From a virus: a DNA stretch of 56,883 nucleotides. A program made the position numbers and the translations under genes. The stretch spans positions 1 to 56,883 of IMG/VR virus record IMGVR_UViG_3300033156_001123; one strand, written 5' to 3'. Under the pieces are notes generated by a model. The model saw only the letters and a list, made by a program, of their open reading frames with translations, was not told where the DNA came from and made no database searches. Below are positions 11,245-54,527 of the stretch, in pieces; position 1 is the stretch's first letter, and the number at the start of each line of letters is the position of its first letter.

Positions 11245-11765
11245 TACTTAACTGCCATCAAAGTTGTAAACAAACCTTCGCCTTGAACAAAATTCTTTAA
11301 TACTTCAAATCTGGCTCTAACTCCGTAAGCTTCTCTGTCTCTGTTATCAGCTGAAGGCAGCCACCATGACCATAAATCTGGATGAATTAATCTTTTGTGG
11401 TCAGGATGTGCATATGCATATTTAGATGTCCACAGAGGATTAATCATTTCTAATATGCCTTTTCTTTTCAACACTCTCCAAATTTCTTCCATAACAAAAA
11501 TCAAATTGTTCACATGCTCCATAAAATGCGAAGCATAAATAAAATCTATAGTGCAATCTCCAAAAGGCAAACCATGTTTATCCACATCCCTAACAATATC
11601 AACTCCAGGACATTTATAATTATCAATTCCTATAAAACCAGGAGGAATTTGCCTTTTTCTATCTCCACAGCCAAGATCAACTTTTACGCAATTTGGATTC
11701 GTTAATGGTAAAGCTATTGAATCACTACTTGTTAATCTCAACTTAACTTGAATACTTTCAATCAT
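11244..11765 (-). CDS. SAM-dependent methyltransferase (class I)
   Basis: A 173-residue methyltransferase with the SAM loop VDLGCGDRKRQIPPGFIGID and the segment SHFMEHVNNLIFVMEEIWRV followed by LKRKG. The same order (LGCGDNK, GFVNID, HSLEHL, MSEIWRVLKPGG) occurs in the methyltransferase domain of the 938-residue fusion protein at 32877-35693, so the two are probably paralogues. It overlaps the epimerase gene upstream by four bases. A sugar or glycan substrate is inferred from the neighbours. Confidence 0.75.
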   Translation of the reverse strand: MIESIQVKLRLTSSDSIALPLTNPNCVKVDLGCGDRKRQIPPGFIGIDNYKCPGVDIVRDVDKHGLPFGDCTIDFIYASHFMEHVNNLIFVMEEIWRVLKRKGILEMINPLWTSKYAYAHPDHKRLIHPDLWSWWLPSADNRDREAYGVRARFEVLKNFVQGEGLFTTLMAVK

Positions 11766-29704: not shown

Positions 29705-30658
29705 TTAATATTCTGTCCTGACCCATTTATCTGGTTCCAAAATATCAGCATCAAATCTTGCCTTAGCTCTGGCATTTTCTGTGTCTCGTAATAAATCTTG
29801 CCATTGCTTAATCTGTAGCATTAATCTCCTTAAAAATACACAGCCTCCTCCAGTCTTCGCTTTTCCGATGTAATAATAATCAGAATCCACATACGGAGAG
29901 CATATAATATTCAGCACATTCTGAAATACATTAGTTCCACCAGCTGCTACAGTCCCACCAATATTAGCAGTTACAGTTAGAGAAGTATTAATTAATTCCC
30001 TGGCCTGATACAAATGAGTAGGATCAACAATTATCACATCAGGAGCAATAGGATCTCTCTCAGCTCTTCCTCCTGCTGTTACAGTTCTGTTCATCAAGGT
30101 TGCAATAGCCGATTCGAGAGCCGCTGCATTCAATCCAGTATTAGTATTCTGATTCATCGAAGCTCCCCGAGTAGTAAAAGCCCCAAAAGCTATTTCATCT
30201 TCTTTCTGTTTAAACCTGTGACCAACTACCCTTAAACACCACCCCATAACATCAACTTCTGCATCTTCCAGCATCTCCTCAGTGAAACCCAGCAAACACT
30301 CAAATTTCCTTGGTTTCATAGTCGCTTCACCAGACACAGGTCCTGTAAAGTGCTTCTCCTGTCCGCTAATCGCCTCATAAACATGAATACCTTTCAGTCC
30401 TGGGAAATCAATCTCCTTACCTTTAGTCATTGTGACCAAGTCGAATACTTGTGGCCACAATGCCACATGTTCCATATAACCATCCAGCAATTTGGTATTA
30501 AAAGCTGTTCTTAACAGCTCTGGCATCTCTGAAGTCGTACGAGCTTCCTTCAGCAGTTTTCTAATCACTCTTTGCTGAGCTTCTGTCCAGCCTGAAGTCT
30601 GAACCGCTGTCTCTCTTAAGTCTTGCACACTAATCAATTCTGTATCGTTATTTTTCAT
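29705..30658 (-). CDS. Major capsid protein (HK97 fold)
   Basis: A 317-residue protein following protease/scaffold and decoration genes. It has VALWPQVFDLVTMTKGKEID (N-arm/E-loop region), RKFECLLGFTEEMLEDAEVD, PDVIIVDPTHLYQARELINT in the P domain and a C-terminal KARFDADILEPDKWVRTEY. These fit HK97-fold capsid subunits of this phage type. It has a full-length GGAGGTGAT ribosome site and is followed by a terminator, both fitting very high expression. Confidence 0.9.
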   Translation of the reverse strand: MKNNDTELISVQDLRETAVQTSGWTEAQQRVIRKLLKEARTTSEMPELLRTAFNTKLLDGYMEHVALWPQVFDLVTMTKGKEIDFPGLKGIHVYEAISGQEKHFTGPVSGEATMKPRKFECLLGFTEEMLEDAEVDVMGWCLRVVGHRFKQKEDEIAFGAFTTRGASMNQNTNTGLNAAALESAIATLMNRTVTAGGRAERDPIAPDVIIVDPTHLYQARELINTSLTVTANIGGTVAAGGTNVFQNVLNIICSPYVDSDYYYIGKAKTGGGCVFLRRLMLQIKQWQDLLRDTENARAKARFDADILEPDKWVRTEY

Positions 30659-31195: not shown

Positions 31196-31747
31196 TTAAT
31201 CCTCGTCCTCTTCGTCATAAATTCTCTGTATATTCTCAGCCAAATTCCACAGTTTCTCATTACCTTCTTTTAAAATATCTGCTTCAGTTTTAGATGTTGT
31301 TTTTGTTGCTCCTACTGGAGGTTTACCATACACCAAAGTCTTCTTCTCTCTGGTAAGTGGAACCAATTCCTTAATATAGTCAAGCTCTGCTTTAAGAGAT
31401 TCTTCTACTTCCTTTTCGTTACTACCAACCACTCTCTTCCTCAATAACTCCTTAACCTTATCATCAACATCCAGCTCTTCAATTTTCTTATTAATAAACT
31501 CTTCTAACTTTTTCTGCTCTATTTCTGCTTTTAGTTTATCCCGTTCCTGTTCAGCAGCCACTAATTTAGTCTCCAGCTCTTTAATCTTCTCTTGTAATTT
31601 ATCAAATTCTTCTTGTAGCTTTTCTTTTTCAGTACTCAATTCCTCAACTTCAGTACTCAATTCCTCAACTTGTGCAGCTAAAGTCTCCTTAGCATCCTCA
31701 ATCAGATCCTGAACTTCGCTCATCTGGAGTAATTCCTCCTTTGTCAT
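31196..31747 (-). CDS. Scaffold protein made from a nested in-frame start
   Basis: Inside the protease gene an ATG at 31745-31747 is preceded eight bases earlier by GGGAGGTG (31756-31763), a ribosome site as strong as those of separate genes. The product would be 183 residues: an N-terminal MTKEELLQMSEVQDLIEDA, a long coiled coil with repeated VEELSTE and KLQEE heptads, and an acidic C-terminus. This is exactly a scaffold domain. The layout copies lambda C/Nu3, in which scaffold is also made from a start within the protease gene. Confidence 0.7.
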   Translation of the reverse strand: MTKEELLQMSEVQDLIEDAKETLAAQVEELSTEVEELSTEKEKLQEEFDKLQEKIKELETKLVAAEQERDKLKAEIEQKKLEEFINKKIEELDVDDKVKELLRKRVVGSNEKEVEESLKAELDYIKELVPLTREKKTLVYGKPPVGATKTTSKTEADILKEGNEKLWNLAENIQRIYDEEDED

Positions 31748-32836
31748 ATTTTCAACACCTCCCTTGTTTTCATACACTTCTTTAACTTTTGCTCCTGGTA
31801 TTGCTCCCTCTAATACGAGATCAATACCTTTCAAATGCATTTCTAATACTCTTTCTCTTTTGTGACCATTGACTTTTTCAGTCATTAAATTACCTTCCGC
31901 CCTTATGGACAGCTCCTGTGAACCGGCTGGTCTGAATTTCAGTAATTCTTGCGCATCCTTACCCAAAGACGTATTATTTAACTCAGCAACAAAAGTAACT
32001 TCTCCATTGTCATTTAAATCTATCTCGACAGGTCTGCCAACAATCCTACTGGGGTCATCACCTGTCGGATGGCCCATCATAATTGTTAATTTTTCAATAT
32101 TCTCTTTAGCCTCTTTAACTGCTGATTCTACTACTTCTCTCGGATAAAATCTACCATTGGCACTTTCTGCATTTGCTTTTAAAGCTACCCCACTGAATCT
32201 GAACGGTTTTTCTTTATCTTCTTCTATCCAGTCCAAACTAATAACATTCTCTGTGATTTCTTGATTCTTGCGAATTGTGCCTTCTGATAACTTTGGAGTT
32301 CTCTTTGGAGGTTTACTTTCTTTAATCAATTCAGCTATTTTATTCAGCTCACTAATATTCATACTTTTCAGTTTAGCTATTGCTTCAGTAGTATTCTGGA
32401 TTGCCAATTCTTTAGAAGCATAATAACCATATTTGGGTGCTAATAGATTCCTAATCTGGGTTAACTTGGTTTGTGTCGCTTTGTCTTTTATTGTCTTAAT
32501 TAATTTATCTAACAGACTGAGTGCTTTCTTAAACTGTTTGTTATATTTACCATAATAACCATAACCATAATAACCATAGCCATACTTGCCATAATCACCA
32601 TATTTTCCATATTTACCATACTTCTTAGTTACTTTTTTAGCTTCATCAGAGCCTCTCATCATATTGCCACATTTTGGGCATTTTATTTGGGTACAAGGAA
32701 TCGATTTGCCCAACCCAATCTTTTTGTGAACAACTTTATAACCACATACTGGACAGACACAATATTTAGCTCCCCCATCTGCTTGAGGGTAACCTCCTAC
32801 ACCTTTACCATAGCCTCTTGCTTCTATAATGCCCAA
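31196..32836 (-). CDS. Prohead protease with zinc-ribbon N-terminus and C-terminal scaffold
   Basis: A 546-residue protein. Residues about 25-60 form a zinc ribbon (CVCPVCGYK ... CPKCGN); 70-98 is a Tyr-Gly-Lys tract; 190-350 is a gp21/XkdF-like prohead protease with GRFYPREVVESAVKEA, IMMGHPTG (catalytic His) and SQELSIRAEG (catalytic Ser); 364-546 is a coiled-coil scaffold. It should process scaffold and capsid during head maturation. TTG start behind AGGAGGTG. Zinc ribbon and YG tract are not part of usual phage proteases. Confidence 0.85.
   Translation of the reverse strand: MGIIEARGYGKGVGGYPQADGGAKYCVCPVCGYKVVHKKIGLGKSIPCTQIKCPKCGNMMRGSDEAKKVTKKYGKYGKYGDYGKYGYGYYGYGYYGKYNKQFKKALSLLDKLIKTIKDKATQTKLTQIRNLLAPKYGYYASKELAIQNTTEAIAKLKSMNISELNKIAELIKESKPPKRTPKLSEGTIRKNQEITENVISLDWIEEDKEKPFRFSGVALKANAESANGRFYPREVVESAVKEAKENIEKLTIMMGHPTGDDPSRIVGRPVEIDLNDNGEVTFVAELNNTSLGKDAQELLKFRPAGSQELSIRAEGNLMTEKVNGHKRERVLEMHLKGIDLVLEGAIPGAKVKEVYENKGGVENMTKEELLQMSEVQDLIEDAKETLAAQVEELSTEVEELSTEKEKLQEEFDKLQEKIKELETKLVAAEQERDKLKAEIEQKKLEEFINKKIEELDVDDKVKELLRKRVVGSNEKEVEESLKAELDYIKELVPLTREKKTLVYGKPPVGATKTTSKTEADILKEGNEKLWNLAENIQRIYDEEDED
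32541..32625 (-). repeat. Tyr-Gly-rich low-complexity repeat in protease N-terminus
   Basis: The DNA repeats a TATGGTNAATATGG-type unit and encodes KYGKYGDYGKYGYGYYGYGY and flanks. It separates the zinc ribbon from the helical/protease part. Such aromatic-glycine tracts are disordered and can self-associate. Small-unit repeats are prone to length change. Confidence 0.8.
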
Positions 32837-32876: not shown

Positions 32877-35693
32877 TTATTCATCCTTGAAAAAAGTTTG
32901 ATCCTTAGGTCTTTTGGCTATCCAAATTCGCTTGCCGTCAGCAATTGGAGCATACATGAATAACCATCTACCTGACAAATTTTTGTTCCTTGTGAAATTG
33001 AACTCAAATTCTTTAATATGTTCTTCTTGTTTGTGAGCTTTCCAATCTATGAAATCTATTATTATCATTACTGCATATGACTTACTGAATGCACCCACTT
33101 CTCCTGGCTCAAATATGGCTGGGCTCTTTTTACCAAAATCCAGCCATGACAAAGGTCCTCTAATTACCTCAGCCTCACCTTCACCTTTTCTGGGCTGTTT
33201 CCACATAAACCGTAAGCTGTCTCCAGGTTTATAATCTGCCAACTTATCAAGCCCTTTAATATTGCCAATTAGTATTTCTCCACCTTCCCAATAATTCTTA
33301 CCTGAAGGATGTAATCTTAAGTCTATGTGACAACCCGCTGAAATTAACGATTGCATTATATCTCTAAAAGGTTTAAGACCTTTTCTAACGGCTGCCATGA
33401 TTCTTAATGAATTCCTCATGATTTTCTTCACCCCATCCTCAGTTAAACCCATTATGTGTAGTTGAAGAACCCCATCACCTTTCATTCTTTTAGTAATAGT
33501 AATATTCCCTCTCTCTCCTGCTTCACCTTCCTTTTTTGCTTCAATGATAACAAAACTTTCACTTGATGATATCAATTTACTCTTTTTCAACTCATCTCTC
33601 ACATCAGGGCTAATCTGCAATATACCTGCAGCATAAGCTCTCTTAATTATTTCTTCAGCTGTCTCTGGATTCTTTCTGGCTAATTCTATGTCTCGAACTG
33701 CTGGTACAACTGCACCAATTAGCCAACGACCATCTTTGAATTTTGGTATAATTTCTTGTGCGGTTATGGTCAGTATATCGCCAGGGTTCGCTTTCACAGT
33801 TGTGTTAAAAGTTTTACCCAAAGTCTCCAACTTACCTTTAGACAAATACCCAACAGTATAATTGAACACATTAGTAGTACCTTTAACAGAATTCCTTTTT
33901 ATTACTTGAACCTTGAATTCAACTATTGTTTTAATTTTAGCCCAGGCAGGGGTCTGTCCAGTTAAAGGATATGTAGAATCAGTTACTTTACACACAGCCC
34001 CTTCTGAACCCTCAACTTTACTAACCTTCTGAATATCTTTTATCAAGTCTGCTTTACTGCCAGAAATGTTTTTAGGAGATAGCTTGAAAATTTTAAAGTC
34101 ATACTTAGCAAAAATATTCTCTAATTGCTCTCTACGGACAGTCCAAGGTTCATTGTGTAAATCTTTATCATCATAATACAGACAGTCAAACACATGGCAC
34201 ACTAAAGTTCCTTTTACTCCTGCTGGCGTTTCAAACTTGCGATAAACTTTATCTTTAGTAGTGCCCCAGTAAGCTAAGTCTTTCCTGGCTATAACTTTAC
34301 CACCTGGACCAATAGCTCCCAATTCAGCGTCCAATATAACTGGCTTGTCTATAACTTTCAAGTCCGCTACCAAGTCTGGAAACTGATTGCTTCTATCTCT
34401 TTTAGAATCCTCAAAGTAAATTAAAGTGTTACCATTGTCTTTTTGCAAAACAGTTCTCCAACCGTTGTATTTAATCTCTGTGTCTATTTTCTTACCTCTC
34501 TTCAAATAAGCATCAGCCCACTTATCCACAAAAGTTTTAATATCATAATATTCCTGCATAGTATATCCACTTGAGGTCTTGAGTGGAGTAAAAATCTGGA
34601 GTGGCTTGAGATTTTTACTTTCAAGTACTTCATCTATCCCAGAATTTTTAACACACTTCAATTTGCCAACCAAATACACAGCATCCCACTCAGGATCGTC
34701 ATATTCTTCCAACTTTTCTATTTCAAACTTGGGATATATGAAATGGCTTTTGCGCAAATTGTCTTCACAAAAAAATTGTATAGTAACCGCATTCCACATA
34801 CTCTTGTGGGTAGGATTGCCGAATGCTCCTTGTCCTTTAGTACTGGGAAATTCAAATTCAAAGATGCCTCCAGGTTTCAATACCCTCCAAATCTCTGACA
34901 TAATGAAGAAATGGTTGCTCAGATGTTCAAGTGAATGTTTAGCCAACACATAATCCACAGAATCATTGGGAAATGGTATGCCATGTTCTAAGTTCCAATA
35001 TAAGTCGGGATGCCCAGTAATATCAATATTAACAAAACCAGGTAGCTTATTATCACCACAGCCTAAATTCAGCTTGATAACTTTTTTATTCTCTGTACTT
35101 TTACCCTCATTAACCTTAACAATACCTTTGTCCTTAGCTCTTAACACCAAATCGAACAAAGGCACATAGTCATCATGAGGACCTTCTGGGTTATATACCC
35201 AATGATATTCTTTATTCTGCCTGCCGAGAGTCTTAGCAACCAGCACTTCTAAACTTGGATCTCTGGGTGGTCTTCTGAACAATATGTCTATGTCTTCATA
35301 ATTGTCTTTCTTGACACTGCTACCTATCTGGCACACAAAGTCAGGAATATATACTACATCTTTTTCGTTCTTTAACTTCAAGCTCTCTGTCACATCTGAC
35401 AATTCCTTGCCAATTCTGCTCAATATTTTCTTTAATAGCTCTAAACTACTTTTCTTCATCTTGTCTGGGTGGAAAACTATTATCTTTCTCTTCAGCATTT
35501 CTCTCACTATTTTTTCTGCAAATTCAATCAAATCCTCAATTTTAGCAAATTCAGTCTTCCCACCCTTCTTCATTACACTATACTTAGCACACAATAACCT
35601 CCAATCATCCCTCAATTGGTCATCCCTTACTTTACTCGCATCATAGCCCTTAACTTTAAATTCATTTATTTTTATTTTTATCACCCCTCCCAA
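32877..35693 (-). CDS. Four-part fusion: nucleotidyltransferase, methyltransferase, ATP-dependent ligase, phosphoesterase-like
   Basis: 938 residues. About 115-190: polymerase-beta-type nucleotidyltransferase, GSSVKKDNYEDIDILFR (GS 124-125, D134, D136). About 205-345: class I methyltransferase, LNLGCGDN at 208-215 and HSLEHL. About 365-660: ATP-dependent DNA ligase, K408-YNGW (motif I KxDG has Asn for Asp), HVFDCLYYDD (III), EGAVCK (IV) and WAKIK (V), then an OB-type region. About 780-930: HIDLRLHPSG at 789-798 and YWEGGEI, as in LigD 3'-phosphoesterase domains. It lies between a DNA methyltransferase and the prohead protease. TTG start at 35691-35693 is uncertain (GTG nine bases in is possible). 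Could repair DNA ends inside or on entry from the capsid. Confidence 0.8.
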   Translation of the reverse strand: MGGVIKIKINEFKVKGYDASKVRDDQLRDDWRLLCAKYSVMKKGGKTEFAKIEDLIEFAEKIVREMLKRKIIVFHPDKMKKSSLELLKKILSRIGKELSDVTESLKLKNEKDVVYIPDFVCQIGSSVKKDNYEDIDILFRRPPRDPSLEVLVAKTLGRQNKEYHWVYNPEGPHDDYVPLFDLVLRAKDKGIVKVNEGKSTENKKVIKLNLGCGDNKLPGFVNIDITGHPDLYWNLEHGIPFPNDSVDYVLAKHSLEHLSNHFFIMSEIWRVLKPGGIFEFEFPSTKGQGAFGNPTHKSMWNAVTIQFFCEDNLRKSHFIYPKFEIEKLEEYDDPEWDAVYLVGKLKCVKNSGIDEVLESKNLKPLQIFTPLKTSSGYTMQEYYDIKTFVDKWADAYLKRGKKIDTEIKYNGWRTVLQKDNGNTLIYFEDSKRDRSNQFPDLVADLKVIDKPVILDAELGAIGPGGKVIARKDLAYWGTTKDKVYRKFETPAGVKGTLVCHVFDCLYYDDKDLHNEPWTVRREQLENIFAKYDFKIFKLSPKNISGSKADLIKDIQKVSKVEGSEGAVCKVTDSTYPLTGQTPAWAKIKTIVEFKVQVIKRNSVKGTTNVFNYTVGYLSKGKLETLGKTFNTTVKANPGDILTITAQEIIPKFKDGRWLIGAVVPAVRDIELARKNPETAEEIIKRAYAAGILQISPDVRDELKKSKLISSSESFVIIEAKKEGEAGERGNITITKRMKGDGVLQLHIMGLTEDGVKKIMRNSLRIMAAVRKGLKPFRDIMQSLISAGCHIDLRLHPSGKNYWEGGEILIGNIKGLDKLADYKPGDSLRFMWKQPRKGEGEAEVIRGPLSWLDFGKKSPAIFEPGEVGAFSKSYAVMIIIDFIDWKAHKQEEHIKEFEFNFTRNKNLSGRWLFMYAPIADGKRIWIAKRPKDQTFFKDE

Positions 35694-36030: not shown

Positions 36031-37371
36031 TTAAAAAAGAAACTTAAGTTGCCTCAATTCGTTTCTTATCCTCCTCCTCGCCATTTCACAGTATTTGGGG
36101 GATATATCTATGCCTATGAATCTTCTCCCAAGCTGGAGGGCAATAAGAGCAGTAGTACCAGACCCAATAAAGGGGTCTAATACTATACCGCTTTCCCATT
36201 CAGCATTGCAACCGCAATCTGTCCAGCCTTCTGTTTTAGTTATATTTCTCATAGCTGGCTTACCTGGCGTTCCCAAAACTCTTGCTTTTCTATCTACTCC
36301 CCAACTTACTCGCTCTTTCCCAATTACTTTCCCTATTCTCACCCTTGCCTTCCCACATTTCTTACAAATCCATTGAGGGCACCCTGCTTTTATCATTGGC
36401 TCAACCAGTTTTTCAGGAAAAGTAGCAAAGTGGGCTTCGGGAAAGGGTTGAGTAGGGATTTGCCAAACATCGCCTGGATTTTTGCCGAGAGGATGGAGTA
36501 GATTAGGATAATTGGGATTATTATAAGTTCTACATTCTTGAGAAAATCCAAATTTTTTCCCATCTCCTTTTCCTTTACCTCCGCTTTTTGAATGTTTATA
36601 TTTTACTCTTTCAATGCTACTTTCTTTTTGTGGTATCCTTATCGCATCTAAATCGAACCAATATTTCCTTTTCTTTGTGAGCATAAATACTGGCTCATAC
36701 TTGTTAGCCATTCTATCTTTCACGGAAGAGGGCATCCCATTGGGCTTATTCCAAATTATAATATTGCGGAGTATCCAACCTTGTTCATCAATCATACGGA
36801 GGATTAAGCGATAGTTCTGGAGACATATACATTTTGGAGTTAATTTTAACTGAGGATTGGGTTTATCAGAATAGAGATTAGGATTGGATAAACTTACCTC
36901 ATTATTGTTCCTATAGTCTCCTTTACCACAGCCAGAGCCTCCATAACAATCTCCATGGTTCCAAAACATTACCCCAGTGGGCTTTAAAATTCTTTTTAAT
37001 TCAGCGGTAATTTGTAATAAATGCTCAATATACATATCAAGAGTGGGTTCTAATCCCAATTGTCCATACCAAGCTCCACATTTTTGGCATAATAACCCTC
37101 CGGGAAGATGAGCAGAAGGTATACTTTCTTTCCAATTTCCATCATTTGTTCCTCTTAGTTTTTTACCTGCTGTGTTAACCCACTTATGCTTGCACTCAGG
37201 GTCTCCTCCCCACATAGTTTTTGTTTCTTCTCCGTAATCTCGGAGGCCCCAGTAGGGAGGAGAGGTAATAATAGTATCCACACACTCATCAGGCATTTCT
37301 TTCAAAACATCAAGAACATGCCCACAGATAATCTGATTCACAAAATCAGAAGGCCAAATTAACTTTTGCAT
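36031..37371 (-). CDS. DNA methyltransferase, beta class, probable N4-cytosine
   Basis: A 446-residue enzyme with the catalytic motif first: DTIITSPPYWGLRDYG (TSPPYWGLRDY is typical of N4-cytosine enzymes) and SAM-binding VLDPFIGSGTTALIALQLGRR near the C-terminus, an order of beta-class enzymes. Between are two Cys-rich zinc-like parts (CQKCGAW, and CPQWICKKCG with a later CGC). GAGGAG ribosome site. No restriction endonuclease partner is seen, so protection of phage DNA against host restriction is the likely role. Confidence 0.88.
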   Translation of the reverse strand: MQKLIWPSDFVNQIICGHVLDVLKEMPDECVDTIITSPPYWGLRDYGEETKTMWGGDPECKHKWVNTAGKKLRGTNDGNWKESIPSAHLPGGLLCQKCGAWYGQLGLEPTLDMYIEHLLQITAELKRILKPTGVMFWNHGDCYGGSGCGKGDYRNNNEVSLSNPNLYSDKPNPQLKLTPKCICLQNYRLILRMIDEQGWILRNIIIWNKPNGMPSSVKDRMANKYEPVFMLTKKRKYWFDLDAIRIPQKESSIERVKYKHSKSGGKGKGDGKKFGFSQECRTYNNPNYPNLLHPLGKNPGDVWQIPTQPFPEAHFATFPEKLVEPMIKAGCPQWICKKCGKARVRIGKVIGKERVSWGVDRKARVLGTPGKPAMRNITKTEGWTDCGCNAEWESGIVLDPFIGSGTTALIALQLGRRFIGIDISPKYCEMARRRIRNELRQLKFLF

Positions 37372-39546: not shown

Positions 39547-40950
39547 TTACCTCACTTTTGTTCTCTTATAAACTAAATCAAATCTTTTTGATAAATTTTT
39601 CATAATTTCATGTGAATGCTGTTGCCAAGCTTCTCTTGGACCTAACAGACCTGAATGCACTTTATTATAATATTTATAATATGTTTTTGATTTTTCTTCA
39701 AGATATTTCATTCTTACTGCCATGGCATCTGGCCAATCACCCAATTTTTTTGGATATATTTCATATCTGTATTTATCACTAATAACCCTCAGCCTCTTCA
39801 ATCGGACTCGTTTAGCAAATATCAAATCACTATCACTAAAACTTGAGCTATTAGGGTGATTATGAATCATAGTTAATGAATGAATTTTCTGACGACGAAG
39901 TATTCCTGATTCTGATGGCGATAAAGTTATTTGATTTTTAGTACCTGTTTTGGTAAAAATAATATTACCCTTTTCATCTAAAATAGCAGTATGTTCAAGA
40001 CCATCTTTCTTAAACTCATTCATTATAGATTCTTCAGCTCTGAGAAATCGAGTTTCTAAAGGAGGTTCATAAACTCCTTTGACTTCCATTTTCAATCTTT
40101 CCAATTCTTCTTTTGTGAACAAGTCTTTCCTATAGAGATATGTGGTAAAACAACGACAGAGCGGGTGGAGCGGGATTTCAGCCCTTTCTCCTTTAGCATA
40201 ATAATATTCTCTACCTTCTCTTTCGGCACACTCTGGACAAGGCCAAGGCCCTATACTATTAACCATCCATCTTTCACCAATAATCCAATCAGTAGATTGC
40301 CCAAAAGAATAGTGTCCCATTTGAAACGCCCTGGCCATCTCTGTCCTGGCAATTCTTTGTGCTTTATAAGTCAAACCTTTTGCTGGCTTGCCAAACTCCG
40401 CTCCGATCATTTGCCTAATATCAGTGGTCAATTTTTGTATCGTATCTGCTTGAATTAGTCCTTGTTGCAGTCTATTTTGAATCTGACGAGTGGCTGCTAC
40501 TGTGTCAGCATCAACTAATTGTAAAGCGTAATTAGCATAAACTTCTATAGCTGCTCTATTTATAACTGTGAAAGCCGGTCTGAGAGTTGTCTCTATATTG
40601 TCAAGCAATGCTGCCATCTGAGCCTGACCAAATTGTATACCTTTTTCTCCAGCTCCTCTGACTGCCTGTGGTACTTGTCTGCGCAGTTTAGCATTTAAAA
40701 CTTCCATTTCAGCAGCAATAGCATCCTGTAATTCTCTCAATCTACCAATAGCAGTAGGAGAAGCTACATCTTTAGTCCAATCTGCCCATTTTAAAGCAAT
40801 TTGTCTCTCAATTTCTTTCCTGGCTTCATAATATAATCTCCATAATCTTTTCAGCTGATTCTCACTATATTTCTCAAAAGAATTTATAGCTCTTTCTGTA
40901 GCTTTCTGAATAGCCAGAGATATGTCTTTGCTTTCTGTTATTGTTTTCAT
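39547..40950 (-). CDS. MuF-type head protein with C-terminal JAB/MPN-like domain
   Basis: 467 residues. Residues about 1-275 are a MuF/SPP1 gp7-like head morphogenesis protein: AQRIARTEMARAFQMGH, WPCPECAEREG and IPLHPLCRCFTTYLY, with Cys/His pattern as in the family. Residues about 315-410 add TAILDEKGNIIFTKTG, SLTMIHNHPNSSSFSDSDL and LRVISDKYRYEIYP: the H363-x-H365-P ... S372-x2-D375 arrangement of JAB/MPN (JAMM) metal proteases. MuF proteins with extra C-terminal toxin-like domains are known; these may enter the cell with DNA. Starts as ATGA overlap with the 3D gene. Confidence 0.85.
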   Translation of the reverse strand: MKTITESKDISLAIQKATERAINSFEKYSENQLKRLWRLYYEARKEIERQIALKWADWTKDVASPTAIGRLRELQDAIAAEMEVLNAKLRRQVPQAVRGAGEKGIQFGQAQMAALLDNIETTLRPAFTVINRAAIEVYANYALQLVDADTVAATRQIQNRLQQGLIQADTIQKLTTDIRQMIGAEFGKPAKGLTYKAQRIARTEMARAFQMGHYSFGQSTDWIIGERWMVNSIGPWPCPECAEREGREYYYAKGERAEIPLHPLCRCFTTYLYRKDLFTKEELERLKMEVKGVYEPPLETRFLRAEESIMNEFKKDGLEHTAILDEKGNIIFTKTGTKNQITLSPSESGILRRQKIHSLTMIHNHPNSSSFSDSDLIFAKRVRLKRLRVISDKYRYEIYPKKLGDWPDAMAVRMKYLEEKSKTYYKYYNKVHSGLLGPREAWQQHSHEIMKNLSKRFDLVYKRTKVR

Positions 40951-42393: not shown

Positions 42394-43833
42394 TTAATCA
42401 TTCTTCACCCTATTAAGAATTTTTGTAATCAATTTTGTGGCAGCTTCTTTCTCTATTTCTCCTTTAGCAACAGCATTGCCAATTTCTGCAATCGCCAAAT
42501 CAACTTTACTAAAACTTTCTTCTGTTTCTTTAACAGACTCTTCCTGCTCCTTTGACAGCTTCTCCTCTTCCTTCTCAACATCCAAGCCAAAATACTGGCA
42601 AATTAAATCCAAAGCTGTTTTAGCGCTAATGATACCTGCTGCCCTAACTGACAATATTGACCTGCTGATTTTTTCAATTTCCGATAATTCATAATCCTGA
42701 ATTGGTGGAAATACAACTTTCAAGTCAAACTTACCTTCTTTATTTTCAGCAGTCTTCCAAGGCCAAATATTTTTTCCTCCACTTTTTTCCAAAGATATTT
42801 TATAAATCTTATAAAACAATTCTTCAAACTTCCTGGCAAATATAGATTGTCTCCTTTGAATTTTTTTCATAAAAGGAAATAACATTTCTCTTGCTGTAGC
42901 TCTGTTTACCATTTCTCCTAAATTTAGCCAGTGGGTCGGTGTTTCTGATGCCATAGCAATAACTTTAGCCAATCTATTTATCATCGCTTCTAAATCAAAT
43001 TTACCAGTAGGCTCTACCAATTGATAATCTGCACCTTTGGGCAAATATAATTGCGTTCCTGGTGGGAAACTTCTCCTAATGCCTTTTTTAGTGTCCACAT
43101 CTCTGCTCAATTTAGCCATTCTTTTTTTCAGCAATACTCTATACCTTAAATCAATCCCTATAAACTTACCAATTGGCTGGCTGGCAAATAATCTTCTTTT
43201 ATCAGCTTCCTCAACCAGAGAATCATACATATCCAAGTGATAGAATAAGTGATACAAATCACTATTACCAAATAAACTATCACTTACAGCATTAACCATT
43301 ACATGAACCATTTCCTCTGGTGGAATTTCTTCGCCTTGTGGATTTGTATCATCGGTAATTTGAGGAAATTGCTGGACAAAACTTTTTACTTCATTCACAT
43401 TATCCTCGTCTACGATTTTGCCAATAGTTTTTGGAGGTAATAAAGCTATTTCAAAATGATTTATATCCTTTTTATCGTGGAAAATTCTAATAAAATTGTC
43501 TCCATATATCCCTGATTCAATGCCAACTTGAAATAAATCCAGCTGTTTAATTAATTCTCTTGCAAATTGAACTTGATCATTATCACCAACAAATTGAATA
43601 CCTTTGCCAAAAGTCGCAGAAGCTGTCAAATTGATAATTGGTCTGGCAAATTGATTTTCTAAATAATAACTCCAAGCTTTTTCATAAATAGCGATCCTAT
43701 CTTCAGGAGCTTTCCAATCTTTGCCTTTTTTGTAAATATAACTACCTAAGCTGATGTCGACACTCCCATATTTGGCTCTTCTAAAAGGTAATCTTGCTTC
43801 TAAAATGTTATTAAACCAATCTTTTATTCCCAA
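42394..43833 (-). CDS. Portal protein
   Basis: A 479-residue protein after the terminase genes and before MuF, with IAIYEKAWSYYLENQFARPI, VGIESGIYGDNFIRIFHDKK and GADYQLVEPTGKFDLEAMIN, as in SPP1 gp6/DUF4055-type portals. The C-terminal 80 residues are highly charged and helical (crown). TTG start behind a GGTGGTGATTTAA leader like those of the capsid genes. It forms the ring for packaging and head-tail joining. Confidence 0.88.
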   Translation of the reverse strand: MGIKDWFNNILEARLPFRRAKYGSVDISLGSYIYKKGKDWKAPEDRIAIYEKAWSYYLENQFARPIINLTASATFGKGIQFVGDNDQVQFARELIKQLDLFQVGIESGIYGDNFIRIFHDKKDINHFEIALLPPKTIGKIVDEDNVNEVKSFVQQFPQITDDTNPQGEEIPPEEMVHVMVNAVSDSLFGNSDLYHLFYHLDMYDSLVEEADKRRLFASQPIGKFIGIDLRYRVLLKKRMAKLSRDVDTKKGIRRSFPPGTQLYLPKGADYQLVEPTGKFDLEAMINRLAKVIAMASETPTHWLNLGEMVNRATAREMLFPFMKKIQRRQSIFARKFEELFYKIYKISLEKSGGKNIWPWKTAENKEGKFDLKVVFPPIQDYELSEIEKISRSILSVRAAGIISAKTALDLICQYFGLDVEKEEEKLSKEQEESVKETEESFSKVDLAIAEIGNAVAKGEIEKEAATKLITKILNRVKND

Positions 43834-43845
43834 TTAAATCACCAC

Positions 43846-44535
43846 CTACATTATTATTGGCACACCATCTCCAAAATGTCCATCTTCTGGACTATAAATA
43901 TCTTCATCTTCTTCAACTGCCCATGTGCCTTTTCTATATTGACTTACTTCACCATAATCTATTTCCAAATCTTGACCAATACCAGTGCCACCATTTAACC
44001 ATTCCTGCTCTCCAACCATAGTATAAGCTAAAGCATCCGCATAATCAGGAGATTTGCCTATTCTCTTAATTATCTCTTCTTTACTTTCAAACTTTATCTG
44101 TCCTGAACGAGTATAATAATATTTAATACTACTCAATTCTAATATAATCCTGTTCTTTTGCTCTGGAGTCACATTTTTAAATTTAATCGCTCTTTTTTCA
44201 AATGCTTGTCTCAACCTCCAATATAGCTCAGACCTTAAATCCTTAAATTCTTTGGGTCTAAATGCTTTTGCTCCTCCAATTACTCTAAATAAAGGAATCA
44301 TTCTTTCTTCAAGATTGTCTGCAACCCCAGCACCAATACCAATAGCATCTATGCTTATAAACATAGGATGCCAATTTCTAAAACTCGCTTCTATTATATC
44401 AGTTAATTCATTAGTTTTAGTCTTGCTGTGTTCTTCAAAACCTTCAATTATATATATACCATTTTCATAATTGCGTATACAAAACACAGACTGGTCACTA
44501 CCTAATCTGGCAATATCACAGCCCATGATCCTCAT
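43846..44535 (-). CDS. Large terminase, nuclease half (separate gene)
   Basis: From the ATG at 44533-44535 it encodes 229 residues with the RNase H-fold nuclease motifs of TerL: MGCDIARLGSDQSVFCI (first Asp), MFISIDAIGIGAGVADNL (second Asp) and SPDYADALAYTM (third Asp). AAGGAG in the end of the upstream ATPase gene gives its own ribosome site ten bases before the ATG. A TTG nine bases earlier overlaps the ATPase stop. The nuclease cuts concatemers during packaging. Confidence 0.88.
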   Translation of the reverse strand: MRIMGCDIARLGSDQSVFCIRNYENGIYIIEGFEEHSKTKTNELTDIIEASFRNWHPMFISIDAIGIGAGVADNLEERMIPLFRVIGGAKAFRPKEFKDLRSELYWRLRQAFEKRAIKFKNVTPEQKNRIILELSSIKYYYTRSGQIKFESKEEIIKRIGKSPDYADALAYTMVGEQEWLNGGTGIGQDLEIDYGEVSQYRKGTWAVEEDEDIYSPEDGHFGDGVPIIM

Positions 44536-44540
44536 TTTAA

Positions 44541-45293
44541 TCAAGCTCCTTCAAAAGCTAATTCTATCCAGTTTAAAGGTATACCATATTCAACATCCTC
44601 TTCTGGAAATTCTCCCAGCACTTTAGCTCTCCACAAAATAGAATCCTCTCCCCATTCTAATTTTCTACCTTCTATCCATCCTTTTTCAACCAAACCAGGA
44701 ATAGCTGGTTCTTTACCACTTACATTTGGACTATCAAAGCAACTGATGTGGATTTTATAATATTTAGGATCCTGAAAAGCCTTATAAAAATGATCGCCTT
44801 TACCAACTGGATTGCCTAATTGTAAAAAATACGCATTAGTAGTTAGCAGACTCTGACTCGCATCATATAATGTTTTACTGACTCCAGGAGATTCATCTAA
44901 TATTACCAAAATATTTGGTGAATGATATCCCTGGAAACTTTCTGGCTTTGTTTCATCTGGGTGCAAACCCACAGCAAAATGATTATTAGAAAGTTCATAT
45001 CTCATTGCCAGCATTCTACCTCCAATTACTTGTGGCATCAAAGATTTTTCATATATATCCCTTATGTGCTTCCAGAGTATCATCTCAACCTGCTTATATG
45101 TGGGAGCTGTTGTAATAGCAATACTGGGGTGACGAGTAGCAATAAAAGTCAATACAATTGCAGCACTAACCAATGTTTTGCCAACTCCGTGACCAGATCT
45201 TACAGCTACATAATGATGTTCGAATAAAGCATTGACAATTTCTACTTGTTTACTCCAGAGATTAATTCTGAGTATGTCGTTGATGAATCGCAT
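44541..45293 (-). CDS. Large terminase, ATPase half (separate gene)
   Basis: About 250 residues from the ATG at 45291-45293, beginning MRFINDILRINLWSKQ like other TerL; an ATG at 45366-45368 would add 25 unlike residues and deepen the overlap with the small subunit gene. Motifs: VRSGHGVGKT (Walker A), NILVILDESPG (Walker B and Glu), FLQLGNPVGKGDHFY (coupling motif region). The frame ends exactly where the linker to the nuclease would lie, with stops in both relevant frames within a dozen bases. Confidence 0.88.
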   Translation of the reverse strand: MRFINDILRINLWSKQVEIVNALFEHHYVAVRSGHGVGKTLVSAAIVLTFIATRHPSIAITTAPTYKQVEMILWKHIRDIYEKSLMPQVIGGRMLAMRYELSNNHFAVGLHPDETKPESFQGYHSPNILVILDESPGVSKTLYDASQSLLTTNAYFLQLGNPVGKGDHFYKAFQDPKYYKIHISCFDSPNVSGKEPAIPGLVEKGWIEGRKLEWGEDSILWRAKVLGEFPEEDVEYGIPLNWIELAFEGA

Positions 45294-45804
45294 CTCTGGA
45301 GTATTTTTTGAGAAAATCGTCGAGGAGTTGCTGCTCCTGGCTCGAGGCTTTCTTACTACTGACATCATTTAGCACCTGCTGTAATGTAATTTTTTGTTCA
45401 GTTCTTTCAGTTGGCTCTCCTAACAAATAAAATAAAGTCCTGATTAGCCTTTCCTGACTATCAACTAATTGCCTAACCTCATGAATAGCATTTACATTCA
45501 GTTCTCCACTCTTAAACTTCTTTTTAGCATTCTTAATTAGTTTCTCTACCAACCTTAGAGAGCTTTTAATTTCTTTAACTGCTTTGTCCCTCTGTTTAAT
45601 AATATAATTATCAGTTCGCTCAGCTAACTTATTAGCAATTCTGGCATTTCTCTTCTCTATTTTTTCTCTCCATCTATATCGTTGGCTCCAGCCACACACT
45701 TTTTTGTAAGGCACACCAAATTTCTTTGCTACTTTTTCCAGACTACGGTCTTGTCCTAAAGCAAAATAATACTCAAATGCTTCAATGTGTTCCAAATCTT
45801 CCAT
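45262..45804 (-). CDS. Terminase small subunit
   Basis: 180 residues from the ATG at 45802-45804, eight bases after GGAGGA; a TTG six bases earlier is too close to that site. The N-terminal part has a helix-turn-helix (LEKVAKKFGVPYKKVCGWSQ then RYRWREKI), as in DNA-recognising small terminases, followed by a long helical, basic region and a C-terminal tail. Directly upstream of the ATPase gene. It should bind the packaging start site. Confidence 0.85.
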   Translation of the reverse strand: MEDLEHIEAFEYYFALGQDRSLEKVAKKFGVPYKKVCGWSQRYRWREKIEKRNARIANKLAERTDNYIIKQRDKAVKEIKSSLRLVEKLIKNAKKKFKSGELNVNAIHEVRQLVDSQERLIRTLFYLLGEPTERTEQKITLQQVLNDVSSKKASSQEQQLLDDFLKKYSRDAIHQRHTQN

Positions 45805-50079: not shown

Positions 50080-50730
50080 TTATCCTTTACCTAAAATTCT
50101 CTGCCACCAATCTTTAGCGTAGCCTGACCTGTGTACTGGTGATAAACCTCTTGCTCTCAGTGCTAATTTGTGTTCGGTACTGAGACTGCCATGATTATGA
50201 TTTAATCCATAGCCAGGCCAATTTTTGTTCCAGCCTTCAAATAGAGCATCCACATATACCTTAGCCACAATGCTTGCAGCTCCTATTAAGTAAGATTGTT
50301 CGTCTCCATTGACAATAAACATTAACTTACTATCAGGTATATTTGTATGATTAGCGAACTTTTTACCATCAATTAAAAATTTCTCAATTATTACCCCCCT
50401 TGAAATAGCTATTCTATATAACATTTCCATTGCCATCGCTGTTGCCCAAATTCTTGAACTATACAAGCCCATATTATTGATTAGATTCACATTAGCAGGC
50501 ACCACCACTACCAATCCTTTTTTTAATATGCGAGCAAATAGCTGTTTTCTCCTCTCTGGAATTAATTTTTTGCTATCATTAATCCCTCTGATTCTATTTC
50601 CTTTATCCAGAGGGAGCCAAACAGCTGCCACAACACAATCGCCAGCCAAGCTGGTACAATAATTTACCTCATCAACACCAGCTGCAATTTTATATTTAAA
50701 ATCCTCATTAAATTCAATCTTTTTCTTCAT
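50080..50730 (-). CDS. rnhB: RNase HII-like protein with altered GRG motif
   Basis: 216 residues with the RNase HII order: AAGVDEVNYCTSLAGDCVVA (first Asp-Glu pair), KFLIDGKKF (third acid), GAASIVAKVYVDALF (fourth acid) and GYGLNHNHGSLSTEH. All four catalytic acids are in place, but the GRG motif after the DE pair, which reads the RNA-DNA junction, is replaced by NYC plus a two-residue insertion, and the Arg of KVTRD is Val. It may remove RNA primers with changed specificity. Overlaps the SbcC gene by 17 bases. Confidence 0.75.
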   Translation of the reverse strand: MKKKIEFNEDFKYKIAAGVDEVNYCTSLAGDCVVAAVWLPLDKGNRIRGINDSKKLIPERRKQLFARILKKGLVVVVPANVNLINNMGLYSSRIWATAMAMEMLYRIAISRGVIIEKFLIDGKKFANHTNIPDSKLMFIVNGDEQSYLIGAASIVAKVYVDALFEGWNKNWPGYGLNHNHGSLSTEHKLALRARGLSPVHRSGYAKDWWQRILGKG

Positions 50731-52621
50731 TAATCACACTCTCCCCATTTCTTTTCATTACTACCATCACATCATTAAAATATTCTTTCAGACCTTCATC
50801 ATGGCTGATAACAAAAACTCTACAGCCATTTAAAGATTCTTCATACAAAAGTTCCATAGCTCTTTCTATTCCTGATTCATCAAGCACATCAAAAATTTCA
50901 TCACAAAATAAGATTCCAAGATCCTTGTCAGACCTACTTTTAACAAGATCCCTCAATGCCATCAGAATAGATAAATCAACTTTTCTTTTTTCACCACCAC
51001 TCAACTTCTTATAGCTTCTTTCTTCTCCATCATATTCAATCCTTACCTCAAACTTATCTCTCAATTCTCCCGATTTTAATCGGCTCTGAGTACTAAGATA
51101 TACTTGTATCAAGCCATCAGTCAACACTTTGCTATAATAGTTAGTCCTCTCATTCAAAAATGGCACTACACAATCAAATATAAAGCTCTTTAAACCCTTA
51201 TTGCCAAACCCTTCTACCCAAAATTGATAATATTTAAGTTCTTCTCCTAATCTTTCACAATTCTCTTTTAACTCTTTAAGTTCTCTTTTTTCATCAAATA
51301 ACTGACTCTCAGTTTGTTCAATTAACTTAGTATATGGATTAGAAACTCTCTGTTCCCTTAATTCATTAATCTCTTCATTAAGCCTTTCTTTTAACTTCAT
51401 ACACTCACTTATCTCCAAAGAAACCTGATCCATCATAGACATTAATTCTCTATGTTCATCTACCAGTTCAAAACAATACTTCAAATCCTTTTTCTTGCTA
51501 TTTAGCTCCTCATACTTCTCCCTAAGCTCTTTTTCAATCTTTCCAACCATTAATCTATTCTTTTCTATTCTTTCATTGATATCATCATAATCCTTCTTTA
51601 ATCTCTTAATATGATCTTCAAGCTTATCTCCAGTGAGAGACTGTCCACAAAATGGACATTCAGCTCCACCTTTAAAATCCTGAACAGTTTGAATACGATC
51701 ACCCAATTCTCTACGATCACTTTTAAGCAAACCATTTGTTGCCTCAAGCTTAGCTCTCTTCTCTTCATTAGTAGCAATCACAGATTCAAGCTCTTTTATA
51801 GACTTTTCAATTGTTTCTCTTTTAACAATAGCATTTTTAATCACATGAGCCTTTTTCTTAATTGACAACTTCTTTTCTTTTAAAGATTCAACTACAATAT
51901 CTATCTCAGAGATCTTCGCTTTTTTATCTTCAATTTTTCTCCTCTGTTCATTCAACCAATTTCCCTTATCAGCTTTCAATCTCTCTATCCTAACTTCTGA
52001 TTCTTTTACAATACCTTCCAGCACAGCAATCTTACCAGAGAACTCACCAATTTCATTTTTCAGCTTATTAACTTTTTGCTTTGCCAGATTTTGATAAATT
52101 GGAAACTGGTCAAAGCCCAAAGCCTTTTCTATTATCTGTTTCTGTTCTTTATCTGTCAATGAGGCAAAAAATTGGATTGAACCTTGAGGAAAAACAACTG
52201 AGTTAATAAAAATCTGATAATTCATCCCTATAATTTGTTCAATCAGTTTTTCAGTCTCAGCAACTGATGATTTAGAAATATCTTTGCCATTCTGAAAAAC
52301 TGCTAAAGTATTTCCTTCCTTTGTTTTTCTACCTCTAACAATTTTATAGTTAGTTGAACCATCAGTAAGATCTAACACAACTTTACAATTTTTTCCTGCT
52401 TTTTCATTAATCACATCATCATACTCAGCTCCTCTAACTGTCCTACCAAATAGACACCAGCATATAGCTTCAAAAATAGCAGATTTACCAGCACCATTAC
52501 TATCAGCACTTGAAGAATCTTCATTATCACCAATAATTAAACAGAAATTATGTTCATCAATATCTAACTCCTGCTGTTTATAGCTTAGAAAATTCTGAAT
52601 TTGAATCCTATTTACTTGCAT
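50714..52621 (-). CDS. SbcC/gp46-like recombination ATPase
   Basis: A 635-residue SMC-like ATPase: RIQIQNFLSYKQQELDID, Walker A DSNGAGKSAIFEAICWCLFG, coiled coils with a zinc hook CPFCGQ in the middle, the signature KLSGGEKRKVDLSILMALRD and Walker B LGILFCDEIFDVLD. With the nuclease encoded just upstream it forms the Mre11/Rad50-type complex that resects DNA ends in phage recombination. The phosphate loop has a longer lead (GDNEDSSSADSNGAGKS) than bacterial SbcC, as in T4 gp46. Overlaps its partner by 14 bases. Confidence 0.92.
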   Translation of the reverse strand: MQVNRIQIQNFLSYKQQELDIDEHNFCLIIGDNEDSSSADSNGAGKSAIFEAICWCLFGRTVRGAEYDDVINEKAGKNCKVVLDLTDGSTNYKIVRGRKTKEGNTLAVFQNGKDISKSSVAETEKLIEQIIGMNYQIFINSVVFPQGSIQFFASLTDKEQKQIIEKALGFDQFPIYQNLAKQKVNKLKNEIGEFSGKIAVLEGIVKESEVRIERLKADKGNWLNEQRRKIEDKKAKISEIDIVVESLKEKKLSIKKKAHVIKNAIVKRETIEKSIKELESVIATNEEKRAKLEATNGLLKSDRRELGDRIQTVQDFKGGAECPFCGQSLTGDKLEDHIKRLKKDYDDINERIEKNRLMVGKIEKELREKYEELNSKKKDLKYCFELVDEHRELMSMMDQVSLEISECMKLKERLNEEINELREQRVSNPYTKLIEQTESQLFDEKRELKELKENCERLGEELKYYQFWVEGFGNKGLKSFIFDCVVPFLNERTNYYSKVLTDGLIQVYLSTQSRLKSGELRDKFEVRIEYDGEERSYKKLSGGEKRKVDLSILMALRDLVKSRSDKDLGILFCDEIFDVLDESGIERAMELLYEESLNGCRVFVISHDEGLKEYFNDVMVVMKRNGESVINEEKD

Positions 52622-53672
52622 TCGCTAACTCCAGACCTAACTTTATTAGTTTTTCTTTATCAAGATCTGTCTTAACTGCTTTAACATACTCGGCAATCAT
52701 ATCTTCCATTTTCATCTCAAGCTCAATATTAGCTCTTTTCTTTTCTTCAATCTTCGCAGTTTTTTCAATTACAACATACTTAGCTCCAAGTTCATACAAA
52801 GAATCTCTAATTTCCTTAATCTCAGATTCCTTAATCGCTGGAGGTAAAACTACTTTAACATAATTGTTCTCAAAATCTACATCTTTGTCTTCATTGCCAT
52901 CCAGTAATATAAATTTAGGAGTATGAGTTTCTATAAACTGATATTCTACTTTTGTATTCTTATCTCTCAATTCAATATCCCAAAAACCCTTATTATCATT
53001 TCTTTCTCCAAAATTTAACTGAAGAGGAGAACCTACATACAGAACATTTTCTCTCAATTTCTGGCTCTTGTGATAATGTCCAAGAAGAACTAAATCAAAC
53101 AGCTCTGGAAATAAATCCTTTAGCTCAATTTCATCTTTAAGTACATAGTGAGATAAACTACTAACTTCAGCTCCAGCCACTCCAGTATGTGCTATTAAGA
53201 TTCCTTGTTTCTTTTGTTTCTTACCTATCAATTCCAGCATAGCTTTCCTTCTTTCATCAGGGTTATCAATATAAGGTAAAGCATACACAGGAGTGAGTTT
53301 GTCCAGGAAAAACTTTTCAGGCTTATCAATGACATGAGCTATTTCACTGAATGGTTTAACTGAATGATATTCTCCTTTCTTAAGAAACTGGTCATGGTTG
53401 CCCACTAAAATATGAATTTCTACACCAGTTTCTTTAATTTTCTTCAATCTTTCATATACAAGATGATAAACTTCTATAGATACTTTTGTTCTGCTATTAA
53501 ACAAATCACCCAAAAACAAAAATGCTTCAATATCATCATTGCTAACTATATATTCCTCAATTTCATCTAAAACTCTTACACAGTCTAATAATCTGCTATT
53601 TAATCCATCAATAATTCGGGCAAATTGTGTATAGTTATGAACATGTAAATCTGCGGTCGCTATAAACCTCAT
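52608..53672 (-). CDS. SbcD/gp47-like recombination nuclease
   Basis: A 354-residue calcineurin-type phosphoesterase: FIATADLHVHNY (motif I DxH), FLFLGDLFNSR (II), ILVGNHDQFLK (III GNHD), LIAHTGV and LLGHYHKSQ (IV, V). A C-terminal capping domain with EEKKRANIELEMKMED follows. It is the Mre11-like partner of the ATPase below. Its ATG shares a base with the stop of a small membrane protein gene. Confidence 0.92.
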   Translation of the reverse strand: MRFIATADLHVHNYTQFARIIDGLNSRLLDCVRVLDEIEEYIVSNDDIEAFLFLGDLFNSRTKVSIEVYHLVYERLKKIKETGVEIHILVGNHDQFLKKGEYHSVKPFSEIAHVIDKPEKFFLDKLTPVYALPYIDNPDERRKAMLELIGKKQKKQGILIAHTGVAGAEVSSLSHYVLKDEIELKDLFPELFDLVLLGHYHKSQKLRENVLYVGSPLQLNFGERNDNKGFWDIELRDKNTKVEYQFIETHTPKFILLDGNEDKDVDFENNYVKVVLPPAIKESEIKEIRDSLYELGAKYVVIEKTAKIEEKKRANIELEMKMEDMIAEYVKAVKTDLDKEKLIKLGLELANASK

Positions 53673-53854
53673 TAATAGTCTCCATAATAATTTTCCCCAT
53701 CTAAATCATCAATACTAATTTCGTCTTTTTTAATTGCCATATAAACCCAATCATAAATTTTGACCACTTTTCTCCTTCTCAATAATCTAAAGACATTCAA
53801 CACACCTACCACATAACCAATAAACAAAAATAATAAACAAAGAGTTATTACCAA
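53672..53854 (-). CDS. Small membrane protein, 60 residues
   Basis: TTG start (53852-53854) inside the end of the 50-residue gene above. One N-terminal membrane span (VITLCLLFLFIGYVVGVLNV), then RLLRRRKVVKIYDWVYMAI and an acidic end. Positive residues after the span predict the C-terminus inside. Function unknown. Confidence 0.55.
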   Translation of the reverse strand: MVITLCLLFLFIGYVVGVLNVFRLLRRRKVVKIYDWVYMAIKKDEISIDDLDGENYYGDY

Positions 53855-54000
53855 AATTTAGCTCCTTTCAGATCCTCTTTATCAGCTTTAACTACTTTTT
53901 CAAGATCTTCTTCAATCACCAAAATTCCTGTATCTAATTCCTTATAAATAGCTTTACCTGTCTTAGTTTTGCCCACTTGCTTATACCTCTTTTTACTCAT
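53848..54000 (-). CDS. Small basic/acidic protein, 50 residues
   Basis: ATG at 53998-54000 overlapping the nuclease stop as ATGA. Sequence MSKKRYKQVGKTKTGKAIYK then ELDTGILVIEEDLEKVVKAD. Coupling at both ends and normal codon content support a real gene. Function unknown. Confidence 0.6.
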   Translation of the reverse strand: MSKKRYKQVGKTKTGKAIYKELDTGILVIEEDLEKVVKADKEDLKGAKFW

Positions 54001-54527
54001 ATTTCTCTCCTCAATTTAATATATCTTAGCATATCAGCTGACCAGCTTTTAAACAAATCTGATAATAAACCAATAACAAATTTATTCCTTTCACCAAATT
54101 CATTAACCCGCTCAAAATACAATTGCTTTCCTACTAAATGATTACTAAAGTCCTCAATTTTTAATATGTCCTCATATGACATCATATAAAAATCTGGACA
54201 ATAATTCTTCGTGAAAATCAATAAAGGAATTTTACCACTTTCTAAAGCGTCATTTTCACATTGTTTCCAATATTTCATTATTTCATTCTTTTCTCTGAAT
54301 AAATCTTCAAACTTCCAGCTCTGTCTATTTTTGCATTCAAGATGAAAAGGAAAATCTGGATCCACAGTTACACCATCACCTTTCCAATGAGACCCGCCAC
54401 TTATTGGAGTTCTATATATTGGCTTGCCCCACCACTTTGTCAACAACTTACAAATCTTTCGTTCATAATTACCACCCTTAATGCGACTATATTTAGCAAC
54501 TTGTGATTTAGTTCTCTTCTTCTTCAC
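53997..54527 (-). CDS. PD-(D/E)XK nuclease, Holliday-junction-resolvase-like
   Basis: A 176-residue protein with RIKGGNYERKICKLLTKWWG, then GDGVTVDPDFPFHLECKNR. The Glu of GxxxE, Asp of GDG and ExK of ECKN give the PD-(D/E)XK metal site in the spacing of archaeal-type resolvases and related phage nucleases. It sits between RecA and the SbcCD pair, which fits resolving recombination intermediates. Overlaps recA by four bases. Confidence 0.75.
   Translation of the reverse strand: MKKKRTKSQVAKYSRIKGGNYERKICKLLTKWWGKPIYRTPISGGSHWKGDGVTVDPDFPFHLECKNRQSWKFEDLFREKNEIMKYWKQCENDALESGKIPLLIFTKNYCPDFYMMSYEDILKIEDFSNHLVGKQLYFERVNEFGERNKFVIGLLSDLFKSWSADMLRYIKLRREI

Follow-up and report, generated by a model that had tools for sequence, protein, structure and literature searches.

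A viral head-module polypeptide joining ATP-dependent DNA ligase and LigD-type 3'-phosphoesterase domains

Bacterial LigD, the ligase of non-homologous end joining, combines an ATP-dependent ligase with a 3'-phosphoesterase (PE) domain in one protein, and the phages Omega and Corndog express Ku and use host LigD on entry (Pitcher et al. 2006, as cited in PMC7719229). The polyvalent proteins, as Iyer et al. 2017 (PMC5512222) describe them, place disparate enzyme domains in a single phage polypeptide, with DNA methylases and Pol-beta nucleotidyltransferases (NTases) among them, and can end in capsid-type peptidases, virion processing being inferred there. A term search of that paper returned 'ligase' three times, with reference to RNA ligases in the passages retrieved, and no ATP-dependent DNA ligase, LigD-type PE architecture or XkdF. 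ANMV-1 (KP703175), a methane-seep sediment virus with an archaeal host, encodes a protein annotated as 'ATP-dependent DNA ligase' only (AJP62006). Here we analyze a relative of that protein, the product of a minus-strand open reading frame (ORF; Table 1) of a virus from hot sea-floor sediment, IMG/VR record IMGVR_UViG_3300033156_001123, whose full 56,883 nucleotides we call the window. On balance, we favor the view that this ligase protein is a head-packaged polyvalent protein, carrying an end-healing and sealing toolkit plus a methyltransferase, that would be delivered with the genome.

The ORF is open over 938 codons, and all of the motifs that a sequence-only reading of this DNA had placed in one 938-residue chain were located within it. 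The count is taken from a TTG, and the true start could lie a few codons away; in a near-identical relative, on the 56.3-kb contig IMGVR 3300014911_000533 (L001; L numbers denote related loci), the start is a GTG equivalent to residue 4 of the window protein. This contig is apparently the same as QNCD01000002, from a Guaymas Basin metagenome-assembled genome (MAG) binned as Omnitrophota. The two genes differ by approximately 104 synonymous and 26 non-synonymous changes, and the ratio of non-synonymous to synonymous substitution rates (dN/dS) was 0.055 overall and ranged from 0.031 (PE) to 0.058 by domain, the methyltransferase included, indicating that every domain is under purifying selection as protein. 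The proposal that the chain contains nucleotidyltransferase, methyltransferase, ligase and phosphoesterase domains was right for all four, as judged from Pfam, family profiles and structure models, and modeling by domain, which had been suggested as a check, supported both the ligase and the PE folds.

Motifs I, III, IV and V and the OB fold of ATP-dependent DNA ligases are all present in the window protein. The ligase domain matched Pfam DNA_ligase_A_M at 2.2e-21, and residues K408, E564, G565, K569, K586 and K588 were invariant among the relatives. An AlphaFold model of the whole chain, built from a 25-row alignment, had a predicted local distance difference test (pLDDT) score of 72.7, and its ligase and OB region was well modeled. 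This region matched DNA ligases I, III and IV, the T4 ligase, archaeal ligases and the LigD ligase domain, with Z 24.2 (root-mean-square deviation, rmsd, 3.8 over 314 residues) to human DNA ligase I and Z 20.2 (rmsd 10.2, 261 residues) to the LigD ligase domain 1vs0; no RNA ligase was matched among the 50 best structures listed.

The C-terminal 207 residues, modeled alone, gave a pLDDT of 85 and a predicted template modeling (pTM) score of 0.82, and the strong matches of this model were exclusively the six LigD PE entries: 3p43 (Z 12.7, rmsd 2.4, 120 residues), 3p4h (12.5), 3n9d (10.6), 3n9b (10.3), 5dmp (9.9) and 2lj6 (8.8), the next chain having a Z of 4.0. A family profile of the domain retrieved only LigD PEs from the PDB (best 2e-4), and the same kind of profile built without the window sequence reached 9e-11 against the window ORFs. 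A direct Pfam search of the window C-terminus did not return LigD_N, so that family profiles and structure were required, while 13 of the 25 relatives matched LigD_N on their own. The manganese ligands of LigD, His42, His48 and Asp50, correspond to H746 (kept in 23 of 25 members), H789 and D791 (each in 24 of 25), and R793, the phosphate-binding Arg52 of LigD, is likewise kept in 24 of 25. A by-eye alignment in which His42 appeared lost was rejected, as the family alignment shows that it is kept; an insert of about 36 residues separates the two histidines.

The NTase carries the motif GSS...DID...D, corresponding to the G[SG]...DxD...D of the Pol-beta NTase superfamily, and the motif is kept in relatives, the G and DxD in 19 of 19 members and the third D in 15. 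From the window sequence alone the domain fell below Pfam significance, and a family profile built without that sequence reached 4e-20 against the window ORFs; the best value that family profiles gave against 3192 shuffled proteins was 0.17. No Pfam or NCBIfam match to the archaeo-eukaryotic primase (AEP)-type polymerase of LigD was found in the 938 residues, which agrees with the earlier suggestion that this NTase is of another type. The methyltransferase (Pfam Methyltransf_11, 5e-9) is 37% identical to one in the glycan cassette of the window (11244–11765, minus strand), a resemblance already noted in the sequence-only reading, and this identity suggests that a domain duplication inside the virus produced the two copies. 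We rejected the idea that such an insert is unique to the window virus, since L071 and L073 hold a different class-I methyltransferase in the same slot between NTase and ligase. The N-terminal helical domain is shared with L016, L010, L022, L037, L045, L052, L082 and others.

Wherever the flanking sequence was sufficient, genes of this family belong to a head module, with genes for portal, MuF, prohead protease or capsid proteins next to them. A clear majority of the first set of loci had portal, MuF, major capsid protein or head protease in the flanking sequence or as a fusion, and the remaining ones were mostly short or ended at a contig edge. In L016 the order is large terminase, portal, MuF, ligase protein and major capsid protein; in L071 and L073 it is large terminase, portal, MuF and ligase protein; and in ANMV-1, L077 and L037 the ligase protein is a close neighbor of the portal. 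The polypeptide itself ends in an XkdF-type prohead protease in L016, L071–L076, L007, L008, L009, L015, L019, L025 and L032, amounting to about 13 contigs (L072 seems to duplicate L071), with Pfam values of 2e-26 to 8e-33 in L071, L073, L016, L075, L076 and others. Ordinary phages, Lactococcus 28201 for example, have XkdF as their protease at the corresponding position, and in L077 an XkdF-like protease (weak match) is the next, separate gene, the same arrangement as that of the window protease. A mobile domain recognized by eye, which we name ASCH-like, occurs at the C-termini of portals in L037, L010, L045, L052 and L082 and at the N-termini of ligase proteins in L016, L023 and L047. Because of the protease fusions, and of this domain shared by portals and ligase proteins, we propose that the enzyme would be made as part of the procapsid.

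Relatives of the ligase protein were found on approximately 45 contigs of viruses or MAGs; the search patterns that we used make this count a minimum. A search of related loci with the single protein or a two-member alignment retrieved only the near-identical contig. A DNA pattern around ligase motif IV yielded 31 viral stretches, 27 of them encoding relatives by tblastn, and 30 stretches in the genome collection, of which 12 matched by tblastn, one of them weakly; a profile search added seven further contigs. The relatives from the genome collection include Methanophagales and Methanosarcinales MAGs. Among the matches listed for 50,697 phage records, only ANMV-1 has ligase plus PE, the others matching the methyltransferase or XkdF parts alone, and tblastn of the ANMV-1 protein against 72,556 plasmids returned no match. 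The usual domain order is NTase, ligase, OB and PE, with NTase, PE and ligase in L009 and L032. Plug-in domains include D12 adenine methylases (L008, L011, L015, L032, L067, L075), a metallo-beta-lactamase (L011, L018, L036), an intein (L008) and several C5 methylase stretches (L020). The last of these belong to a 2845-residue polypeptide (L020 4864–11715; L074 2166–10700, plus strand) in which the several C5 cytosine methylase stretches are joined by NTase, ligase, OB, PE and XkdF protease. The ligase protein of L082 (6555–10685, plus strand) has a phosphoadenosine phosphosulfate (PAPS)-reductase domain (3e-24), which may be tied to sulfur DNA modification; the portal directly upstream bears the ASCH-like domain.

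The closest full-length relatives, L071 (IMGVR 3300034378_000102) and L073 (3300031539_000274), are 42% and 39% identical to the window protein over nearly the entire chain, and share the order NTase, methyltransferase, ligase, OB and PE and the upstream terminase, portal and MuF genes. They differ in their C-terminal zinc-finger linker and XkdF prohead protease and in having another class-I methyltransferase, and are uncharacterized. The ANMV-1 protein (approximately 26–29% identity) shares the succession of NTase, ligase, OB and PE, and its gene is flanked, in a head module, by the portal gene (PF06381) and by one whose product has a MuF-like C-terminus; the ANMV-1 protein differs in having no methyltransferase and an extra C-terminal PE-like repeat. 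The ANMV-1 product called 'MutT-like phage hydrolase' (L005 1913–3193) is that portal, matching Pfam Phage_portal_3 at 3e-22, and the next gene but one (L005 5868–9368) encodes a cysteine-rich protein of 1166 residues whose MuF-like C-terminus was recognized by eye. A second, diverged PE-like copy follows the first in ANMV-1-type members L036, L035, L012 and L010 (in L036, HHWW...EHWDLRI).

The viral protein probably works like LigD, but is not a member of the LigD family, because it has a Pol-beta-type NTase in place of the AEP polymerase and a C-terminal PE with altered phosphate-site residues, and is encoded at a head locus. No Ku gene (PF02735) was found in the window record, although this sequence may not be complete and the host might supply a Ku. 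By architecture and gene place it fits the polyvalent-protein class as a candidate member, the capsid-type peptidase at the C-terminus being that of its relatives. We found no description of a ligase-protease fusion in the open-access literature, and what is new here is that ligase and PE are themselves part of the head polypeptide.

The sequence of events that we envision is that the ligase protein would be incorporated into the procapsid, and that the head protease, which is part of the same chain in the closest relatives and the product of the adjacent gene in the window, would liberate the enzyme, which would then be delivered along with the genome. The PE would clean 3' ends, the NTase would act as a polymerase that adds or fills nucleotides, and the ligase would seal nicks or ends, so that the incoming DNA would be repaired or circularized, for example, ahead of host nucleases. 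Methyltransferases, in the same chain or a neighboring gene, may protect the DNA. Packaging in the head had been suggested from the window sequence alone; the fusion of relatives to the prohead protease and the clustering with portal, MuF and capsid genes now support this suggestion better, while packaging itself is still something that we infer. We also put forward, more tentatively, the broader possibility of a Ku-independent, virus-specific end-joining machine, used by viruses of bacteria and of methane-oxidizing archaea and consisting of the Pol-beta-type NTase, the DNA ligase and the LigD-type PE. It would be made as a head polyprotein, be released by the prohead protease and be injected, and would heal, protect and circularize the genome on entry.

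Several observations weigh against the favored interpretation. Ligase motif I reads KYNG in the window protein instead of KxDG (KFSG in L071 and L073, KxDG in most others). In the PE, the residue at the LigD His84 position is G in the window, most relatives having E or Q there, and 24 of 25 members have W at the Tyr88 position, whereas point mutants of either residue in the LigD PE of P. aeruginosa are dead (PMC8656161), so that 3'-end healing by the viral PE is no more than plausible. The NTase assignment comes from the motif and weak profile matches (PolX and terminal deoxynucleotidyl transferase, E 0.4–1; NTP_transf_2 in 3 of 19 members), and the NTase portion of the whole-chain model is of middling confidence. 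The window head protease has no XkdF match and is a separate gene of another family, so the protease-fusion argument rests on the relatives. The negative search for Ku in the window record counts on the same side. Since the manganese ligands are kept and the His84 and Tyr88 positions are replaced, the viral family has an altered phosphate site with an intact metal site, and its PE may be active on a different substrate, active in a different way, or impaired. The changes at His84 and Tyr88 and in motif I would also suit a structural head protein whose enzyme domains are vestigial, but the metal ligands, the nucleophile lysine and the NTase acids are nearly invariant across very diverged members, and dN/dS is 0.03–0.06 in every domain, which makes this explanation hardly credible.

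A portal- or procapsid-attached protein might instead seal nicks and gaps in replicated DNA during packaging, with no injection. The head-module position and protease fusion would be equally expected, the portal is close by in ANMV-1, L077 and L037, and no second PF01068 ligase was found in the 56.9-kb record, leaving this protein as the only DNA ligase found there; however, the presence of DNA methylases, and of a PAPS-reductase domain, within the same chains fits the protection of entering DNA better, and repair during packaging has no obvious need for head-protease processing, so we consider it rather unlikely. The single PF01068 ligase would also be consistent with an ordinary replication or repair ligase that lies in the late operon by chance, in a virus that also encodes RecA, SbcCD-like and gp32-like proteins and RNase HII. 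Yet these repair genes are grouped at 50–56 kb, distant from the ligase gene, and the head location recurs in very different viruses, with prohead protease fusion in relatives, and chance placement seems quite improbable. We give similarly little credence to an effector that would be injected to act on RNA or proteins of the host, in which the NTase would modify a host target and the ligase and PE would repair RNA, such as tRNA cut by host defense. LigD PE does act on 3' ribonucleotides (PMC8656161), and polyvalent-protein Pol-beta NTases are proposed as protein modifiers by Iyer et al. (PMC5512222), but the best structures listed for the ligase model include DNA ligases I, III, IV, T4 and LigD, and no RNA ligase.

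Table 1. Domains of the ligase protein and neighboring head genes in the window.
Feature	Residues and details	Coordinates	Strand	Basis
Whole ORF	938 aa (N-domain, NTase, methyltransferase, ligase, OB, phosphoesterase)	32877..35693	-	Reading frame, Pfam, dN/dS
N-terminal helical domain	9-105	35379..35669	-	Mobile domain, also in other family members
Pol-beta-type nucleotidyltransferase	112-190; G124 S125, D134, D136, D181	35124..35360	-	Motif, family profiles
Class-I S-adenosylmethionine (SAM) methyltransferase	203-352, between NTase and ligase; SAM motif LNLGCGDN at 208	34638..35087	-	Pfam
ATP-dependent DNA ligase adenylation domain	366-597; motif I K408-YNG, III DAEL, IV EGAVCK, V WAKIK	33903..34598	-	Pfam, model
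OB-fold domain of ligase	598-690	33624..33902	-	Model
LigD-type 3'-phosphoesterase	732-938; H746, H789, D791, R793 kept; G846 at LigD His84 position, W850 at Tyr88 position	32880..33500	-	Model, family profile
Head maturation protease	Separate gene; S77-like region, N-terminal zinc ribbon and coiled coil	31196..32836	-	Domain search
Major head protein		29705..30658	-	Domain search
N6/N4 DNA methylase	Upstream of ligase gene; relatives of the ligase protein have DNA methylases as fused domains	36031..37371	-	Pfam
MuF-like minor head protein		39547..40950	-	Domain search
Portal protein		42394..43833	-	Domain search

On the minus strand of the window the gene order is terminase, portal, MuF, DNA methylase, ligase protein, prohead protease, small protein and major head protein. 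The prohead protease is, as first read, adjacent to the ligase gene, being the next gene downstream after a gap of 40 bp; its N-terminal zinc ribbon has two CxxC motifs, and a G/Y-rich stretch (YGKYGKYGDYGKYGYGYYGYGYYGKY) also lies ahead of the protease domain. The large terminase is divided between two overlapping minus-strand genes, an ATPase part (44541–45368) and an RNase H-like nuclease part (43846–44544), which form one ORF in L016; a search of the sister contig for the split terminase returned no match, but this contig ends approximately 1.6 kb upstream of the ligase gene and is hence uninformative on the split. A 545-residue protein (763–2400, minus strand) has an ILEI domain (Pfam PF15711, 1e-12), which is unusual beside tail genes. 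A repair and recombination cluster (50080–56471, minus strand) encodes RNase HII, SbcC-like and SbcD-like proteins, a PDDEXK nuclease, a bacterial-type RecA and a gp32-like protein. The bacterial-type RecA and phage-type gp32 suggest that the host is a bacterium, and because ANMV-1 and several other relatives point to archaea, the family probably crosses host domains.

If the favored interpretation is true, this would be, to our knowledge, the first kit for healing and ligating DNA ends to be delivered by virions, and a new way to bring enzymes of repair, modification and capsid processing together in a single polypeptide. A lineage of LigD-type PEs whose phosphate site is altered would also be of use to enzymology. 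The interpretation would account for proteins of viruses of anaerobic methanotrophic archaea and of other uncultured viruses that are now labeled only 'ligase' or 'hypothetical', and would offer a testable answer to the question of how some viruses protect or close their genomes in the first minutes after entry.
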